The notes under the pieces are model-generated. The model was not told the DNA's origin, did not search any database, and saw only the letters and a program-made list of their open reading frames with translations. Shown in pieces: positions 39,404 through 48,577 of a stretch of DNA of 49,134 nt (positions are counted from its first letter, which is position 1; each line of letters opens with the position of its first letter). This DNA comes from Hyphomicrobiales bacterium. GTDB lineage: Bacteria > Pseudomonadota > Alphaproteobacteria > Rhizobiales > Beijerinckiaceae. The translations under genes were made by a program, and so were the position numbers. The stretch lies in NCBI GenBank assembly GCA_027489275.1, contig JAIYAB010000190.1, positions 1 through 49,134 of the forward strand. Reading direction: 5' to 3'.

Positions 39404-40621
39404 TCAGGCCGCCCGGACGGGCCGCGCCGGCTCGGGCCCCTGCTGCTCCCGCCGCGTGTCGGCCGCATCGGGGCGCGGTGCGGCTTCGGGCCGCCGGGCC
39501 GCCGCCCAGGGCGCTCGCTTGAACCAGCCCACCACGGCGGCGACGGCGATGACCGCCGCCAGGCCGGCGGCGTTGACCGCCGCGACGGTCCACGCATCCC
39601 GACCGCCGATGTCGAGCAGGGCTCCGGCGATGCGCGCCAGGATCAGGCTGGCGAGGAACGTCGCCAGCGACTGCCGCCCCACCATGATCAGCGTCCGCCC
39701 CGCGGCGCCGGCCGACAGGCGCTCGCGGGCGGGATCGATCAGGCTCAGCACCACATAGGCCAGCGCCAGGAAGTGGAGAACGCGAAGCGGATGCAGGTCC
39801 GCCTTGGCGTTGATCGGCAGCAGCCGGACGTGAAGGGCGAGCGCCGTCTCCGAGGCCTCGAGGATCGGCCCGAACGTGACCGGCACACTCGCGAGGAGGA
39901 AGATCGCGCAGGCCGCGACGAGCCAGCGGCTCCGCAGGCGGGGCACAGGCAGCCAGCCCATCGCGAAGAAGAAGCCGAGGAAGAACACGAACTGCCAGCC
40001 GAAGGGATTGAGAAACCAGGGATCGCCCGTCCACGGGTTGCCGGTGAGGTGCAGATCCCGGAGCCAGACCAGGCCGTAGAGCCCGAGCACCACGACGAAC
40101 GGACCCGCCGGGTGAAAGCGGCGGGCCGCCATCACCGCCGGCACCAGGGCCAGGATCACCAGGTACATCGGCAGGATGTCGAGATACTCCGGCAGCCATG
40201 TCAGGGTCATCGCCCCGACGACGGCGCCGACGGGATCGGTCAGCAGCGGCCCGAACTGCCGCGCCAGCGTCTGCGTCGTTCCGGTCAGGCGGTCGATGGA
40301 CGCGTCGATGGCGATGCTGGCGAAGAAGAGGCCGACATGCGCCCAATAGACCTGCCACCAGCGATAGGCGATCCGCGCCGTTCCCAAGGCCAGCCCCCGC
40401 GCCACGAACACCGAGCCGAATGCCAGCGCGCTGGCGACTCCGGAGCAGAACACGAACAGCTCGGTGCCCGAGGAGAAACCGAAGCGCGCCGGAATCCAGT
40501 CGCGCCAGGGGTTCTCGGGCACGTGCGCGACGAAGATGATCAGCATCGTCAGGCCGCGAAACAGGTCGAGCCGCTCGTCGCGCGCGCGCCGTCCGGATGC
40601 GGCGGCAGGGTGCACGCCCAT
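39404..40621 (-). CDS. opgC: OpgC family membrane protein (glucan succinyltransferase-like)
   Basis: A 405-aa integral membrane acyltransferase-like protein with about ten hydrophobic segments. It opens with the OpgC/acyltransferase-3 motif RLDLFRGLTMLIIFVAHVPENPW and contains FVFCSGVASALAFG and FGWQFVFFLGFFFAMGW. OpgC (MdoC) adds succinyl groups to osmoregulated periplasmic glucans; many Rhizobiales homologues are annotated by domain only. The C-terminal 35 residues are a Pro/Arg-rich cytoplasmic tail. ATG 40621 overlaps the ThDP-enzyme stop (ATGA), an unusual partnership. Confidence 0.85.
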   Translation of the reverse strand: MGVHPAAASGRRARDERLDLFRGLTMLIIFVAHVPENPWRDWIPARFGFSSGTELFVFCSGVASALAFGSVFVARGLALGTARIAYRWWQVYWAHVGLFFASIAIDASIDRLTGTTQTLARQFGPLLTDPVGAVVGAMTLTWLPEYLDILPMYLVILALVPAVMAARRFHPAGPFVVVLGLYGLVWLRDLHLTGNPWTGDPWFLNPFGWQFVFFLGFFFAMGWLPVPRLRSRWLVAACAIFLLASVPVTFGPILEASETALALHVRLLPINAKADLHPLRVLHFLALAYVVLSLIDPARERLSAGAAGRTLIMVGRQSLATFLASLILARIAGALLDIGGRDAWTVAAVNAAGLAAVIAVAAVVGWFKRAPWAAARRPEAAPRPDAADTRREQQGPEPARPVRAA

Positions 40622-42222
40622 CAGAACGTCCCGTCATAGGCGCGCTGGCCGATGGCGCATGCGATCACCGTGAAGCCCTCCCTGCGGAACGCGTCCTGCG
40701 CTTCCTCGCGCAGCGCGTCGCCGTCGCTCACGACGACGCCATGCCCGCCCATCGCGCGCGCCACGCCCGCAAAGTCCGTGGCGCCGAACGAGACGCCGAG
40801 GCTGTCGAGGCCCGAGGCGCGCTGCTTCATCGCGATCAGGCCGAGCGTTTCGTCGACGAGCACGACGACCACGACGCTCAGGCGCAGGTCGCGCACCGTT
40901 GCCAGTTCGCCCAGCACCATCTCCAGCCCGGCATCGCCGACGAAGCACAGCGTCGGGGCGTCGCCCGCCAGCGCCGCGCCGGCCGCCAGCGGCAGGGCGC
41001 AACCCATCGTGCACAGCCCGGTCGACTGGAGCAGGGTCCGCGGCGATGCGCAGCGCCAGGTCTGGCTCAGCAGGATGCGGTGGGCGCCGGAATCCGCCGT
41101 GACGACGGTCTCCGCCGGGGCCGCCTCGCGCAGCGTCTGGAACACCGTCCCGGGCCCCCATCCGGGCGGCGGCGTGAAGGCGTCGCGCAGCGCCGCGCGG
41201 ACGCGCTTTGGCAGCTCGTCGGGCCACGGCGCACGGTCGGGCACAGGGGGAAGCGCCTCCGTGAGGCCGGCGAGCGCGGGGCCGACCGGACCCGCCATCA
41301 CCAGCGTCGCCGCGTGCATGCCGTGCTGGATGTCCTCGGCGACGATGTCGATGACCGGGGTCGCCGCGGGGAACGGGTTCCGCCATCCCGCCCGCATTTC
41401 GATCGGGTCGTAGCCGGCGAGGATCACGAGGTCGGCCGCGTCCAGCAGCGGACGCACCAGCGCATCGGCCTTCGGCGACAGGCCCACGGCGCCGACGACG
41501 GCGGCGTCGTCCTCCGGCAGCACCCCCTTGGCCTTGTAGGTCGTGAGCAGCGCCGCGCCGCTGCGGCGCACGAAGGCGGCCAGCGCGGCGCTGCAGCCCT
41601 CGTTGACGACGTCGAGGCCCGCCAGCACCAGGGGGCGCCGCGCGGCGCGGATCAGCCGGCCGGCCTCGTCGCCGTCGACGCGCCCCTGTCGCCGGTTCGG
41701 CGTCGCGGGCAAGGCGCGCGCCGGGCTCGAAGCCTCCGCGACGTTGACCGGAAGGTCGATGTGCACGGGCCCCGGTCGCCCTGACCGCGCGATCGCCACC
41801 GCCTTGCGCACCACGAGGTCTTCCGTGCCCGGGGCGGCGCGGAAGCTCGCCTTGACGAGGGGACGCAGCACCGCGCGATGGTCGAACACCTGATGGGTGT
41901 AGCTCTCGGCCTCCGCCTCGCCGACGCAGCCCGTCAGGAAGACGAGCGGCACGCGGTCCTGCTGGGCGTTGGCGACCACGTTGACGGCGTTGGCGACGCC
42001 CGGCCCCAGCGTCGCCACCAGCACTGGGAGCGATCCGGTGACGTGCCAGACGCCCTCAGCCATGAACCCGGCGGCGTTTTCGTGCTTGGCGAGAAGAAAA
42101 CGGATGCCCGCCCTGTCGAGGGCGGCGAGAAGCGCGAGCACTTCCCCGCCCGGAATGCCGAACGCATGGCTCGCGCCGGCGCTCCTGAGCGCCTGCGCGA
42201 CGAAATCGGCACCGGTCGGCAT
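40621..42222 (-). CDS. Thiamine-diphosphate-dependent enzyme, acetolactate-synthase-like
   Basis: A 533-aa three-domain ThDP enzyme of the IlvB/benzoylformate-decarboxylase/oxalyl-CoA-decarboxylase superfamily. The N-terminal Pyr domain holds the cofactor-activating Glu (E48 in KHENAAGFMAEG) and ATLGPGVANAVN. A central Rossmann-like domain follows, then the PP domain with FVGDAGLEMVLGELATVRDL. The metal-binding motif is altered: GDG is GDA (429-431) and the Asn 27 residues on is Asp (D457 in VDETLG). Similar variants occur in uncharacterised subgroups, so the reaction is open. It is coupled by ATGA to opgC. Confidence 0.88.
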   Translation of the reverse strand: MPTGADFVAQALRSAGASHAFGIPGGEVLALLAALDRAGIRFLLAKHENAAGFMAEGVWHVTGSLPVLVATLGPGVANAVNVVANAQQDRVPLVFLTGCVGEAEAESYTHQVFDHRAVLRPLVKASFRAAPGTEDLVVRKAVAIARSGRPGPVHIDLPVNVAEASSPARALPATPNRRQGRVDGDEAGRLIRAARRPLVLAGLDVVNEGCSAALAAFVRRSGAALLTTYKAKGVLPEDDAAVVGAVGLSPKADALVRPLLDAADLVILAGYDPIEMRAGWRNPFPAATPVIDIVAEDIQHGMHAATLVMAGPVGPALAGLTEALPPVPDRAPWPDELPKRVRAALRDAFTPPPGWGPGTVFQTLREAAPAETVVTADSGAHRILLSQTWRCASPRTLLQSTGLCTMGCALPLAAGAALAGDAPTLCFVGDAGLEMVLGELATVRDLRLSVVVVVLVDETLGLIAMKQRASGLDSLGVSFGATDFAGVARAMGGHGVVVSDGDALREEAQDAFRREGFTVIACAIGQRAYDGTF

Positions 42223-44555: not shown

Positions 44556-47270
44556 TCACGCCACGAAGGCGCACTGCTCCTGCGGTGTCCGCGTGTCCAT
44601 GTTCCGGCCGCGGTTGAGGTGGTCGTCGATCTCGGCGGCCGCGCCGATCATGCGCCCGTAGAGGAACACGTTGAAGGCCGCCGTCTCCAGGTCGTGGTCC
44701 TTGATCCGGCCGGAGCGGTGGTCCTTCCACAGCACGGCGAGCAGCAGCGCCGCGATGACGGCATCGACGTTGACGCAGAACACGTAGGGCGTCGCGCCCT
44801 CGTCGTAGAGCGCGTGGACGAGCTCCACGTAGTAGGCGTGGAAGATGTTGTAGTCGTCGCGGCTCGCCATGTACTCCGCGATGAAGCGTTCGCGCGGATC
44901 GTGGTTCACCGGCTTGCCGCGGAACACCGGGTGATGCACGCCCGGCAGGGCGCGGGGCTCGAGATGACCGAGTTCCTTGGAGCGTGACTTCTCCTCGCGG
45001 TAGCCGCGGGCGAACTGCCGCGCGAGGCCCTTGAGGTCGATCCCGTGGGCCGGGTTGGTCGGGTCGTCCAGCTCCACGTCCCGGAACTGCTCCAGCAGGA
45101 ACGAGATGCCCTCGTAGCCGTTGCCGCCATGCGCGTAGCCGCTGTGGCTGAGAAAGCCGATCATCGCCTTGTTGATCTGCACGCGCCCGGGCGTCTGCGG
45201 CCCGTCCGCGGAGACGGCGCCCTTCGCGCCCTGCGCGGAGATCGCGCCTGGCCCGTTCGAGATCAGCAGGCCCACCAGCATCTGCAGCAGCCGCGCCTCG
45301 CGCTCGCTCGGCTTCTTGCCGATCAGCGGCAGGCACAGGAAGTCGGCCATGGTCCAGTGGCCGAACCGCTCGTCGCGCGGGATGCCGCACAGGCTGCCGT
45401 GCTTGTGCTCGCTGCCGGGGATCGACGCGCCGATCATCACCCCGTAGAGCCGCAGGTACCAGGGCAGCGTCTCCGCCGTGAGACGGGAGATCCGCTTGCG
45501 CATCAGCGGCCCCCACGCGATCGTCATCGCGATGGCGGCCAGCACCGCGTCGCGCGACGGCTGGATGCCGATGCGGCCGAGGAACATCAGGAAGACGGAC
45601 CGGCCGCCGCGCGTCTTCACGGCCCGCAGCATCGCCTCGGGCCGCGGGTCGCCGGCCTCCTCGGGCGAGGCCGCGAACAGCGCGCGCTGCTCGTCCGTCG
45701 GGTGGATCGCCGACAGGTCGAACGTCTCGTCGTGCGCGTCCTGCATGCCCGAATGCGCGAACAGGTCGATCAGCAGGCGCGCGCAGGCCAACGTCCGCTC
45801 CACGCGCCTGGGTCCGATGATCGCGACCGCCGCGGCCATCACCGTGTTCGGCGAGTTGCCGGCCTCGCGCGCCGCGTCGGCCGCGAGGATCGCCGGGTCG
45901 CCGACGAGGTTGATCTCCGCCGCCACGGCGATGTCGAGCATCGCGCGGTCGTTCTCCGTCGCGATCTCGTGCACCAGCGGCAGCGCGAAGTTCGCCTGCA
46001 CCGGCTGCAGCGCGAGGTCCAGCACGGGATAGCCGTGCACGCTCGTGACCTGGGTGCCCGTGTTGAGCACCGACGCGCCCGAGCGGTCCTTCATCGTCTG
46101 CCGCGGCACGATCGCGCCGATCGTGCGGGACAGTGCCTCGATCTGGACATCGTAGGGCGCCATGGCCCGCACGGTGGGCAGCCGCAGATCGGCCGGCAGG
46201 TCGAGCCCCTGGTCGTTGGCGAGCCACGGCTTCAGCGCCAGCGAGCCGTGTCCCCGGAAATCCGGTTCGACGCCGTTCAGCCGCATCACCGCCGTCAGCG
46301 CGGCGGGAATGTCCGCGATGTTGGTCACGACGGCGCCCTTCGCCGAGACGCAGGGCTGCTCCGGCGTATAGAGATCCTCGACGCCGAGCGCCTCGCGGAA
46401 CCAGCGTTCCTTGTCCTCCGCGCGGTCGCCCGACCCGGCCATCGCGCCGGCGTGGCCCACCGCGCGCGTCAGCTTCGATTTCCACCGCCCGACGACGCAG
46501 GCGACGACCGGCTTGTCGAAGGCGACGCCCGCTTCGTAGTAGCCGCCCGGCTCGGCGTAGAGAACCGCCGCCCGGCTGCGCGGATCGGAATGGAACGCAT
46601 GCGCGAAGTCGCGCGCCGCGTAGTGGATGTAGACGTCCTTGCCGGACGAGACCAGCGTCGTCGTCCCCCAGCCCTCCGACGCGAGATACTGCGCGATCGT
46701 GGTGGTGAAGCTGCCGGAGTTCGAGAAAATCGCGATCGAGCCCTTCAGCAGGACCTCGTCCGGCTTGTCGCCGCCGAGCGCCCCGCCGATGCGCACACGG
46801 TTCCACGAATCCGCGACGCCGAGGCAGTTGCCGCCGATGATGTCGACGCCGTTGGCCTGCCCCATGGCGCGGATTTCCCGCGCATCATGGACCGACACCT
46901 TCTCCGTCACGATGACGATCTTGCGGATCGCGCGGTTCACCCGGATCAGCTCCGCCACGCCGTCGCGCACGCTGGGCGGCGGGAGGTAGACGACGCCCGT
47001 GTTGAACGCGTGTCCGTCGTCCAGCCCCTCGCGGACGCTGTTGTAGACGGGGATGTCGCCGATGGCGGTCGCGAGCACCTGTCCCCGCCGCCCGGGCGAC
47101 GTTCCGAACACGACGTTGCCGCCGGAGAAGGCATGGCTCACCGGCGTCACCTGCCGGGATTCGCCGCCCAGGATGTTGAGGACGCACACCCGGTCGTCGG
47201 GCCGCGCCACGTCGGCCAGCGAGCCGATGCCGAGGTAGTAGGGAAAGCCGGGAATTCCGTCGCGGGGCAT
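44556..47270 (-). CDS. ATP-citrate-lyase-like large subunit with two citrate-synthase-like modules
   Basis: A 904-aa protein. Residues 1-330 are a succinyl-CoA-ligase-alpha-type CoA-binding/ligase part with GGNCLGV (147-152) and the phosphohistidine loop VGHAGAMAG (H273). Residues 390-510 resemble a degenerate citrate-synthase-like module. Residues 560-904 form a second: LLQMLVGLLISNGPGAISAQ aligns by eye with ACLY's catalytic TADHGPAVSGAH but has Asn for His (N672), while GVHHP (H779/H780) and NVDAV (D836) keep counterparts of the other two residues. Known AclA is about 610 aa. ATG 47270 follows GGGAGAAC, 11 nt after the small subunit. It probably cleaves citrate or a related acid with CoA and ATP. 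Confidence 0.8.
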   Translation of the reverse strand: MPRDGIPGFPYYLGIGSLADVARPDDRVCVLNILGGESRQVTPVSHAFSGGNVVFGTSPGRRGQVLATAIGDIPVYNSVREGLDDGHAFNTGVVYLPPPSVRDGVAELIRVNRAIRKIVIVTEKVSVHDAREIRAMGQANGVDIIGGNCLGVADSWNRVRIGGALGGDKPDEVLLKGSIAIFSNSGSFTTTIAQYLASEGWGTTTLVSSGKDVYIHYAARDFAHAFHSDPRSRAAVLYAEPGGYYEAGVAFDKPVVACVVGRWKSKLTRAVGHAGAMAGSGDRAEDKERWFREALGVEDLYTPEQPCVSAKGAVVTNIADIPAALTAVMRLNGVEPDFRGHGSLALKPWLANDQGLDLPADLRLPTVRAMAPYDVQIEALSRTIGAIVPRQTMKDRSGASVLNTGTQVTSVHGYPVLDLALQPVQANFALPLVHEIATENDRAMLDIAVAAEINLVGDPAILAADAAREAGNSPNTVMAAAVAIIGPRRVERTLACARLLIDLFAHSGMQDAHDETFDLSAIHPTDEQRALFAASPEEAGDPRPEAMLRAVKTRGGRSVFLMFLGRIGIQPSRDAVLAAIAMTIAWGPLMRKRISRLTAETLPWYLRLYGVMIGASIPGSEHKHGSLCGIPRDERFGHWTMADFLCLPLIGKKPSEREARLLQMLVGLLISNGPGAISAQGAKGAVSADGPQTPGRVQINKAMIGFLSHSGYAHGGNGYEGISFLLEQFRDVELDDPTNPAHGIDLKGLARQFARGYREEKSRSKELGHLEPRALPGVHHPVFRGKPVNHDPRERFIAEYMASRDDYNIFHAYYVELVHALYDEGATPYVFCVNVDAVIAALLLAVLWKDHRSGRIKDHDLETAAFNVFLYGRMIGAAAEIDDHLNRGRNMDTRTPQEQCAFVA

Positions 47271-47281
47271 GGCGTTCTCCC

Positions 47282-48577
47282 TCACAGCGGCGCGGCGTGT
47301 TGCGCCACGTCGAGCCCCATCCGTCGGGCCACCTCCGCCCGCCCTCCCGCCTTCATCCAGGCGTCGATCTTCTTGGCGTAGTTCACCACCTCCGAGATCG
47401 CGCTGTCGAAGCCGAAGAAGCGGTAAGGCAGGCCCAGCGCGTCGCACGTCTCGGCGAGCGCGCCCATGCCGCGCACGAGGTTGGGGCCGCCGCGCCCGAC
47501 CACGACATAGAGCGGCGAGCGGCCATGCGCGCTGAAATGCTCCCGCAGCCCGTCGCCCATCGCCCGGAAGGTCTCGTAGATGTCGGTGTTGTTCGACTTG
47601 CCGCCGATGATGAACAGCACGTTGGCCTGCTTCAGCCAGTGCTTGTAGCAGATCATCGAGACCTGCTTCATCTTCTCGTAGGGTGGGTTGCCGCCGAAAT
47701 CCGACGAGATGATCGCCGAATCGCCGAGCACTTCCGTGACGAGCGAGTTCGCGCCGCCGCCGAAGGTGGGGGCGAGGATCGTGCCCCTGTCGTTGATGAC
47801 GAAGACGTCCGACTGGCCCTGGTGGGTGCGCAACTCGTTCACCTCCTGCTCGAAGTCGGAGGTGTCGGCCGTGAAGATGTGCTGCGGCAGGTCGAGCCGC
47901 TGCCAGCGCTGGTCGTCGCGGTCGAACCCGCACTTGAAGTCGCAGGCGACGGGCGTCAGCCGTCCGTCCCGGCCCGCCCGCATGCGCAGCGGGTTGAGCT
48001 CCAGCGTCGTCATCCCGTAGTGGTGCACCAGCTCCCACAGCTTCGGCAGGTACTGAACGAGCGGCGAGATGATCTCCTTAGGCGCGCCGATGTCCGACAG
48101 CGCGTTCGCGACCACGAAGGCCTTCAGGCCGGTCAGCGCGTCGAAGGGAACCTCGGCGATCTCGCGCCGGTCGACATCCTCGATCTCGACGCCGCCCCGG
48201 TGCGTCAGCGTCATCGTCGGCGCGCGGTAGACCGTCGCATCCGTGATCGAGAAATAGACCTCGTGCTCGGCCGGAACGCCGCCCTCGAAGGTGACGCCGT
48301 TCGCCTTGGCCATGGCGTCGCCGTGGCGATGCTCCACGAAGTAGAGGCGCTCCTTCTCCGCCAGAGCCGTCTTGAGGTCGGTCGCCCGCCCGATCAGTCC
48401 CGCCTTGCCCTTCTTGCCGATGGCGCCCTTGAACAGCGGCTTGACGAAGATCTGCTTGTGGCGGTCGATCAGGTCCTTGATCTCGTCCTCGCTGGCGCCA
48501 GGGCCGAGAACCTCGGCCACCGGAAAGTCGACGTGCTTGAGGAGAGGTGCTCCGTACAGGAGGCCCGCGATCTGCAT
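47282..48577 (-). CDS. ATP-citrate-lyase-like small subunit (ATP-grasp, succinyl-CoA-ligase-beta type)
   Basis: A 431-aa protein. The first half is an ATP-grasp domain (QIFVKPLFKGAIGKKGKAGLIG, TTLELNPLRMRAG), and the second a citrate-binding/CoA-ligase Rossmann domain with FGGGANSLVTEVLG, DFGGNPPYEK and IIGGKSNNTDI. The layout matches the N-terminal half of eukaryotic ACLY and bacterial AclB. It would activate the carboxylate via ATP and the phosphohistidine of the large subunit. ATG 48577 follows GGGAGG. First gene of the two-gene operon. Malate-CoA ligase is an alternative, but the partner's citrate-synthase-like end argues against it. Confidence 0.85.
   Translation of the reverse strand: MQIAGLLYGAPLLKHVDFPVAEVLGPGASEDEIKDLIDRHKQIFVKPLFKGAIGKKGKAGLIGRATDLKTALAEKERLYFVEHRHGDAMAKANGVTFEGGVPAEHEVYFSITDATVYRAPTMTLTHRGGVEIEDVDRREIAEVPFDALTGLKAFVVANALSDIGAPKEIISPLVQYLPKLWELVHHYGMTTLELNPLRMRAGRDGRLTPVACDFKCGFDRDDQRWQRLDLPQHIFTADTSDFEQEVNELRTHQGQSDVFVINDRGTILAPTFGGGANSLVTEVLGDSAIISSDFGGNPPYEKMKQVSMICYKHWLKQANVLFIIGGKSNNTDIYETFRAMGDGLREHFSAHGRSPLYVVVGRGGPNLVRGMGALAETCDALGLPYRFFGFDSAISEVVNYAKKIDAWMKAGGRAEVARRMGLDVAQHAAPL

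Follow-up and report, generated by a model that had tools for sequence, protein, structure and literature searches.

The closest described systems for the cleavage of citrate at the expense of ATP are citryl-CoA synthetase (CCS) together with citryl-CoA lyase (CCL) of Hydrogenobacter (CcsA/CcsB and CCL; 6hxq, 6hxp), in which the lyase is a separate polypeptide, and ATP-citrate lyase, known as AclB/AclA (Chlorobium, 6hxj; Methanothrix, 6hxi) and as human ACLY, in which an ATP-grasp and citrate-binding part precedes a CoA-binding part with a single citrate-synthase-homology (CSH) domain. External tricarboxylates are handled by the tar (trans-aconitate) and tcu (tricarballylate) systems, in which, as described, cis-aconitate enters the tricarboxylic acid (TCA) cycle; in the tar/tcu literature examined, no dedicated enzyme for citrate cleavage was reported for any of them. 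The window analysed here, 49,134 nucleotides of contig JAIYAB010000190.1 from a Hyphomicrobiales bacterium (GCA_027489275.1), contains a gene pair that, judged by its sequence, encodes the two subunits of a member of the ATP-citrate-lyase/citryl-CoA-synthetase superfamily. We consider it rather probable that the pair represents a distinct, uncharacterised subfamily of ATP-dependent citrate-cleaving enzymes, which would convert citrate, CoA and ATP to acetyl-CoA and oxaloacetate and support growth on external tricarboxylates. Its features are the following:

47282..48577, reverse strand: small-subunit gene, 431 aa, AclB/CcsA-like with an ATP-grasp and a citrate-binding domain
47987..48424, reverse strand: ATP-grasp domain, small-subunit aa 52-197 (Pfam ATP-grasp_2, 9e-12)
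47375..47857, reverse strand: citrate-binding domain, small-subunit aa 241-401 (Pfam Citrate_bind, 3e-13)
47585..47593, reverse strand: small-subunit N329-N330-T331 (ACLY N346-F347-T348), all three in 36/36 relatives; CCS has NNT
47492..47494, reverse strand: small-subunit R362, equivalent to ACLY R379, in 36/37 relatives
44556..47270, reverse strand: large-subunit gene (P0001), 904 aa, with 43 full or near-full-length relatives
46281..47270, reverse strand: CoA-binding / succinyl-CoA-ligase-alpha-like (ASH) domain, large-subunit aa 1-330 (Pfam CoA_binding and Succ_CoA_lig)
46452..46454, reverse strand: H273, predicted phosphohistidine (GHAG; ACLY H760), invariant in 46/46 relatives and aligned to PDB relatives
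45615..46100, reverse strand: N-terminal CSH module (N-module), aa 391-552, truncated and without catalytic residues (HMM and profile-profile comparison)
44601..45416, reverse strand: C-terminal CSH module (C-module), aa 619-890, full length (PRK06224, 2.6e-10; HMM and profile-profile comparison)

Among solved relatives citryl-CoA synthetase (6hxq) outranks ATP-citrate lyase for both subunits, the small subunit matching best its large subunit (6hxq_B, 3e-25) and the synthetase domain of the large subunit its small subunit (6hxq_A, 2e-35). The two genes are adjacent, with 11 nt from stop to start, an arrangement conserved in relatives. Counterparts of ACLY N346, T348 and R379, which are citrate contacts, are retained in the small subunit, and F347 is replaced by Asn as in the NNT substrate loop of citryl-CoA synthetase. 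Moreover, E123 of the large subunit, equivalent to ACLY E599, is invariant in 46/46 relatives, and the phosphohistidine and its ATP-grasp partner are intact. Domains and PDB relatives agree with an ATP-citrate-lyase-like two-subunit enzyme, as proposed earlier from the DNA alone (the sequence-only reading), where the length of the large subunit had also been pointed out (904 aa against about 610 aa for AclA). Known AclA has about 610-630 aa, solved chains about 617-631 aa. In 41/41 aligned members synthetase-alpha and CSH are fused in a single chain of about 904 aa, whereas the Hydrogenobacter lyase stands apart.

What makes up the additional length? Past residue 330 the Pfam scan found no domain in the large subunit, including Citrate_synt, which sets it apart from GltA, and the NCBIfam model PRK06224 (citryl-CoA lyase) matched weakly at residues 637-898 (E 2.6e-10). 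A reference CSH hidden Markov model (HMM) combined 21 citryl-CoA-lyase-type proteins with 4 GltA sequences and the CSH domain of human ACLY, whose sequence matched PDB chains exactly. Against this HMM the N-module of the large subunit alone reached 28.4 bits, compared to 7.8 bits for the best of 2,000 shuffles and 8.2 bits for the best unrelated open reading frame (ORF) among 3,078, and the C-module reached 19.0 bits (best domain; family median 24.9). Separate profile-profile comparison, proposed in the sequence-only reading, matched both modules to the reference, the N-module with a score of 37.3 (P 7.7e-5; 20.4 when reversed, 21.4 for the best of 60 column permutations) and the C-module with 77.3 (P 2e-10). 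A single CSH domain with an unrelated insert is ruled out by these HMM and profile-profile tests. The second citrate-synthase-like module seen earlier is real by the HMM score, albeit not as a full copy: only the C-module spans the entire CSH domain, the N-module being limited to HMM positions 6-170, or roughly its first half. The regions carrying H320, D375 and R401 (pig citrate synthase numbering) are absent from the N-module, and other residues occupy the H238 and H274 positions. Mean conservation is nearly equal in the two modules (0.80 in the N-module, 0.82 in the C-module), so the N-module is probably functional though not catalytic. Hhalign gave no signal against the single human CSH sequence, nor between the N-module and the C-module.

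The residues that bear on catalysis lie in the C-module:

45255..45257, reverse strand: N672, replacing ACLY H900 / pig citrate synthase H238, Asn in 46/46 relatives (alignment)
45129..45131, reverse strand: H714, equivalent to pig citrate synthase H274 (ACLY F935), His in 46/46 (alignment)
44931..44933, reverse strand: H780, equivalent to ACLY H975 / citrate synthase H320, His in 46/46 (alignment)
44763..44765, reverse strand: D836, equivalent to ACLY D1026 / citrate synthase D375, Asp in 46/46 (alignment)

Judged from the alignment, the citrate-synthase triad H274/H320/D375 is complete in the C-module as H714/H780/D836 in 46/46 relatives, as are the substrate arginines R793 and R873 (citrate synthase R329/R401), all of which are shared with GltA, to which no synthetase domain is fused. 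The citrate synthase motif GPxHG around H274 aligns with GYAHGG (H714), with GPAHGG in GltA, GSAHGG in the solved citryl-CoA lyase, GSAHGG/GDVHGG in citryl-CoA lyases and GDRFGG (F935) in ACLY; the HGG, GH and NxD motifs are common to the CSH module of Hydrogenobacter CCL, which is not duplicated and retains the His of the DHG motif. The similarity to ATP-citrate lyase is low in the CSH part, and H900, F935 and F347 are replaced by Asn, His and Asn, respectively. H900 of ACLY aligns with the His of the citrate synthase ADHE motif (pig H238), a substrate-binding residue. The 'substituted catalytic His' of the sequence-only reading is found insofar as N672 replaces H900, but the position is that of substrate-binding H238, and the catalytic H274 is kept as H714. 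With a complete triad no alternative acid/base residue is needed, and the earlier suggestion of one falls away. The residues singled out there (H273, N672, H779, H780 and D836) are all present, and except for H779 (His in 42 and Asn in 4 of 46 relatives) all are invariant. In a second citryl-CoA-lyase-like subtype (L077, L092, L093, L094 and L097; matches from 1501) two of the three citrate-synthase catalytic residues are missing, with GSVILGA or GSVVLGS at the His274 position and NISSA or NVNGA (NVSAA in L097) at that of Asp375.

In the reading we favour, the small subunit and the first domain of the large subunit would act like citryl-CoA synthetase, with ATP phosphorylating H273, the phosphate passing to citrate and CoA then taking the acyl group, and the C-module with H714, H780 and D836 would split citryl-CoA, releasing acetyl-CoA and oxaloacetate. 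Having lost its small domain and catalytic residues, the N-module would probably serve as built-in dimer partner or scaffold, forming an intrachain pseudo-dimer that stands in for part of the homo-oligomer made by CSH domains in ordinary ATP-citrate lyase. The sequences themselves show the domains, the duplication, the conserved residues and the gene context, from which reaction, substrate, module packing and physiology are deduced. Alternatively, only the CoA thioester might be made, as by citryl-CoA synthetase, with the CSH modules having an allosteric or structural role and cleavage occurring in the ASH domain or elsewhere. An allosteric model of the CSH domain exists for human ACLY (PMC10115795) and lends support to this idea, as do the one CSH module clearly devoid of catalytic residues and a YciA-type acyl-CoA thioesterase ORF in six Rhodobacteraceae-type loci (L032, L036, L038, L040, L044 and L056), which shares 11-19 nt with the 3' end of the large gene. 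Yet the C-module has the full triad, including the His lost in ACLY, together with both arginines, and F347, needed by the model of cleavage in the ACLY ASH domain, is Asn here, rendering this alternative quite improbable.

How is the family distributed? A scan of GTDB genomes yielded 43 loci in Alpha- and Betaproteobacteria with 66-77% identity, mostly full length, and further copies reside on megaplasmids, including a clade of 61% identity in Paraburkholderia, Caballeronia and Microvirga. Where RefSeq labels the large protein, it is called 'CoA-binding protein' or 'hypothetical protein', and a literature search that reached few subscription papers did not find the family described. The gene is rare and patchy, being present in 3/385 genomes of the class, a count that includes the genome of the window; searching close relatives revealed no full enzyme, strong matches being confined to the succinyl-CoA-synthetase-alpha-like part. 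Host families are intermingled in the tree, Rhizobium giardinii being placed within Paracoccaceae, for instance, so horizontal transfer of the gene pair is likely.

An ordinary citrate synthase was found in 15/15 host genomes of relatives tested. The window's genome, which is 84% complete, gave no match to PF00285 (Pfam citrate synthase); as genomes of the same genus have gltA, the missing citrate synthase is probably an assembly gap. A replacement of the host citrate synthase by the enzyme was rejected on these grounds. The overall domain order resembles AclB plus AclA and would fit an ordinary AclBA serving a reductive TCA cycle, complete or partial, the latter raised in the sequence-only reading. 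The extra CSH half-module, N672, H714 and the CCS-like NNT speak against such an enzyme, as do the citrate synthases of the hosts tested and the neighbourhoods examined, in which no reductive TCA cycle genes were seen, making it very improbable. A reductive role was rejected on the host citrate synthases and on the uptake and catabolic operon contexts; with a normal citrate synthase in the hosts, the enzyme would rather be an added catabolic function.

Which function this could be is suggested by the gene neighbourhoods, which contain neighbour types also known from the tar and tcu systems, namely PrpF-family isomerase, TcuAB and tricarboxylate transporters. An uptake component of TctABC, ABC or MFS type is encoded within about 9 kb in 31/43 loci, TctD/TctE-type regulators in 18/43 and a PrpF-family isomerase in 12/43. 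The order LysR / PrpF - TctC - TctB - TctA - small - large recurs in five loci, and a variant with an ABC transporter in four Mesorhizobium/Sinorhizobium loci; TRAP genes are found at locus L051, and TcuA and TcuB, above NCBI equivalog cut-offs, beside the operon in two loci. In Paraburkholderia and Azohydromonas a ModA-like solute-binding protein is encoded beside the operon; the aconitate isomerase of Pseudomonas WU-0701 is presumably of this ModA-like type. TarA and TbrA of the PrpF superfamily are proven (trans-)aconitate isomerases (PMC11495376), and TcuA, according to a reference cited in PMC10468695, converts tricarballylate to cis-aconitate. These independent neighbour enzymes hence converge on cis-aconitate, one aconitase step away from citrate. 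Together with the transporters and TctDE regulators they indicate a catabolism of tricarboxylates by way of cis-aconitate/citrate, and the bacteria may feed on citrate, aconitate or tricarballylate imported by tripartite tricarboxylate (TTT), ABC, TRAP or MFS transporters. In Microvirga sp. VF16 (L073 1-1273, reverse strand) acetyl-CoA acetyltransferase and acetoacetyl-CoA reductase of polyhydroxybutyrate synthesis are encoded close to the operon and might provide a sink for acetyl-CoA. Near the gene pair in the window, a thiamine-pyrophosphate enzyme (acetolactate-synthase-like; 40621-42222, reverse strand) adjoins an OpgC-family acyltransferase (39404-40621, reverse strand).

Several observations weigh against a citrate-cleaving enzyme for growth on external tricarboxylates. 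Bacteria with a TCA cycle can grow on citrate without such an enzyme. No transporter genes adjoin the isolated gene pair in the window, the genome encoding PrpF-family and TctA-family proteins elsewhere, and the co-located PrpF protein tested passes the NCBI cut-off for '4-oxalomesaconate tautomerase'. The literature search found biochemical data for no member of the family. For the large subunit AlphaFold gave a weak model (predicted local distance difference test, pLDDT, 67.7; predicted template modelling score, pTM, 0.57), too weak to show the packing of the two CSH modules; in Foldseek the full model matched best citryl-CoA synthetase and AclA in the PDB, a comparison in which the modules are not separable. 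The N-module modelled alone (pLDDT 66.0, poor) gave no significant Foldseek match (E > 2), many of these weak matches being citrate synthases or ATP-citrate lyases, so that its homology rests on the sequence comparisons. Furthermore, N672 changes the substrate-binding His that citrate synthase, ACLY and citryl-CoA lyase all retain, and two family-specific residues of the small subunit that vary little or not at all, K327 and G361, differ from ACLY.

These last residues are also what an enzyme of the same mechanism acting on a citrate analogue could explain. In this main rival 2-methylcitrate, homocitrate, hydroxycitrate or citramalate would be cleaved to an acyl-CoA and a 2-oxo acid. Methylaconitate is another substrate of PrpF proteins (PMC5690661), and genes for a 2-hydroxyacid dehydrogenase (5 loci) or a tartrate dehydrogenase (3 loci) lie near some operons, although their position is not conserved. 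Moreover, the N, T and R contacts of ACLY type are retained, and neighbours of TcuAB and aconitate-isomerase type indicate plain aconitate and citrate, and an analogue as substrate therefore seems possible but unlikely. A bolder proposal, a new ATP-dependent ligase/lyase for a tricarboxylate other than citrate, with the decayed CSH half-module substituting for a homodimer partner and cleavage taking place wholly in the CSH triad site, unlike in ACLY, we regard as rather unlikely. The suggestion in the sequence-only reading that something other than citryl-CoA is cleaved persists in the analogue rival; as substrate we infer citrate.

If the proposed citrate-cleaving function is true, the gene pair would represent a branch of the ATP-citrate-lyase superfamily that has gone unrecognised, widespread yet patchy in soil and plant-associated Proteobacteria. 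The retention of the His lost in ACLY together with a decayed second CSH module would offer a natural experiment on the disputed role of the CSH domain, citryl-CoA cleavage versus allostery only. For the bacteria, the enzyme would link plant tricarboxylates such as citrate and aconitate to the supply of acetyl-CoA.

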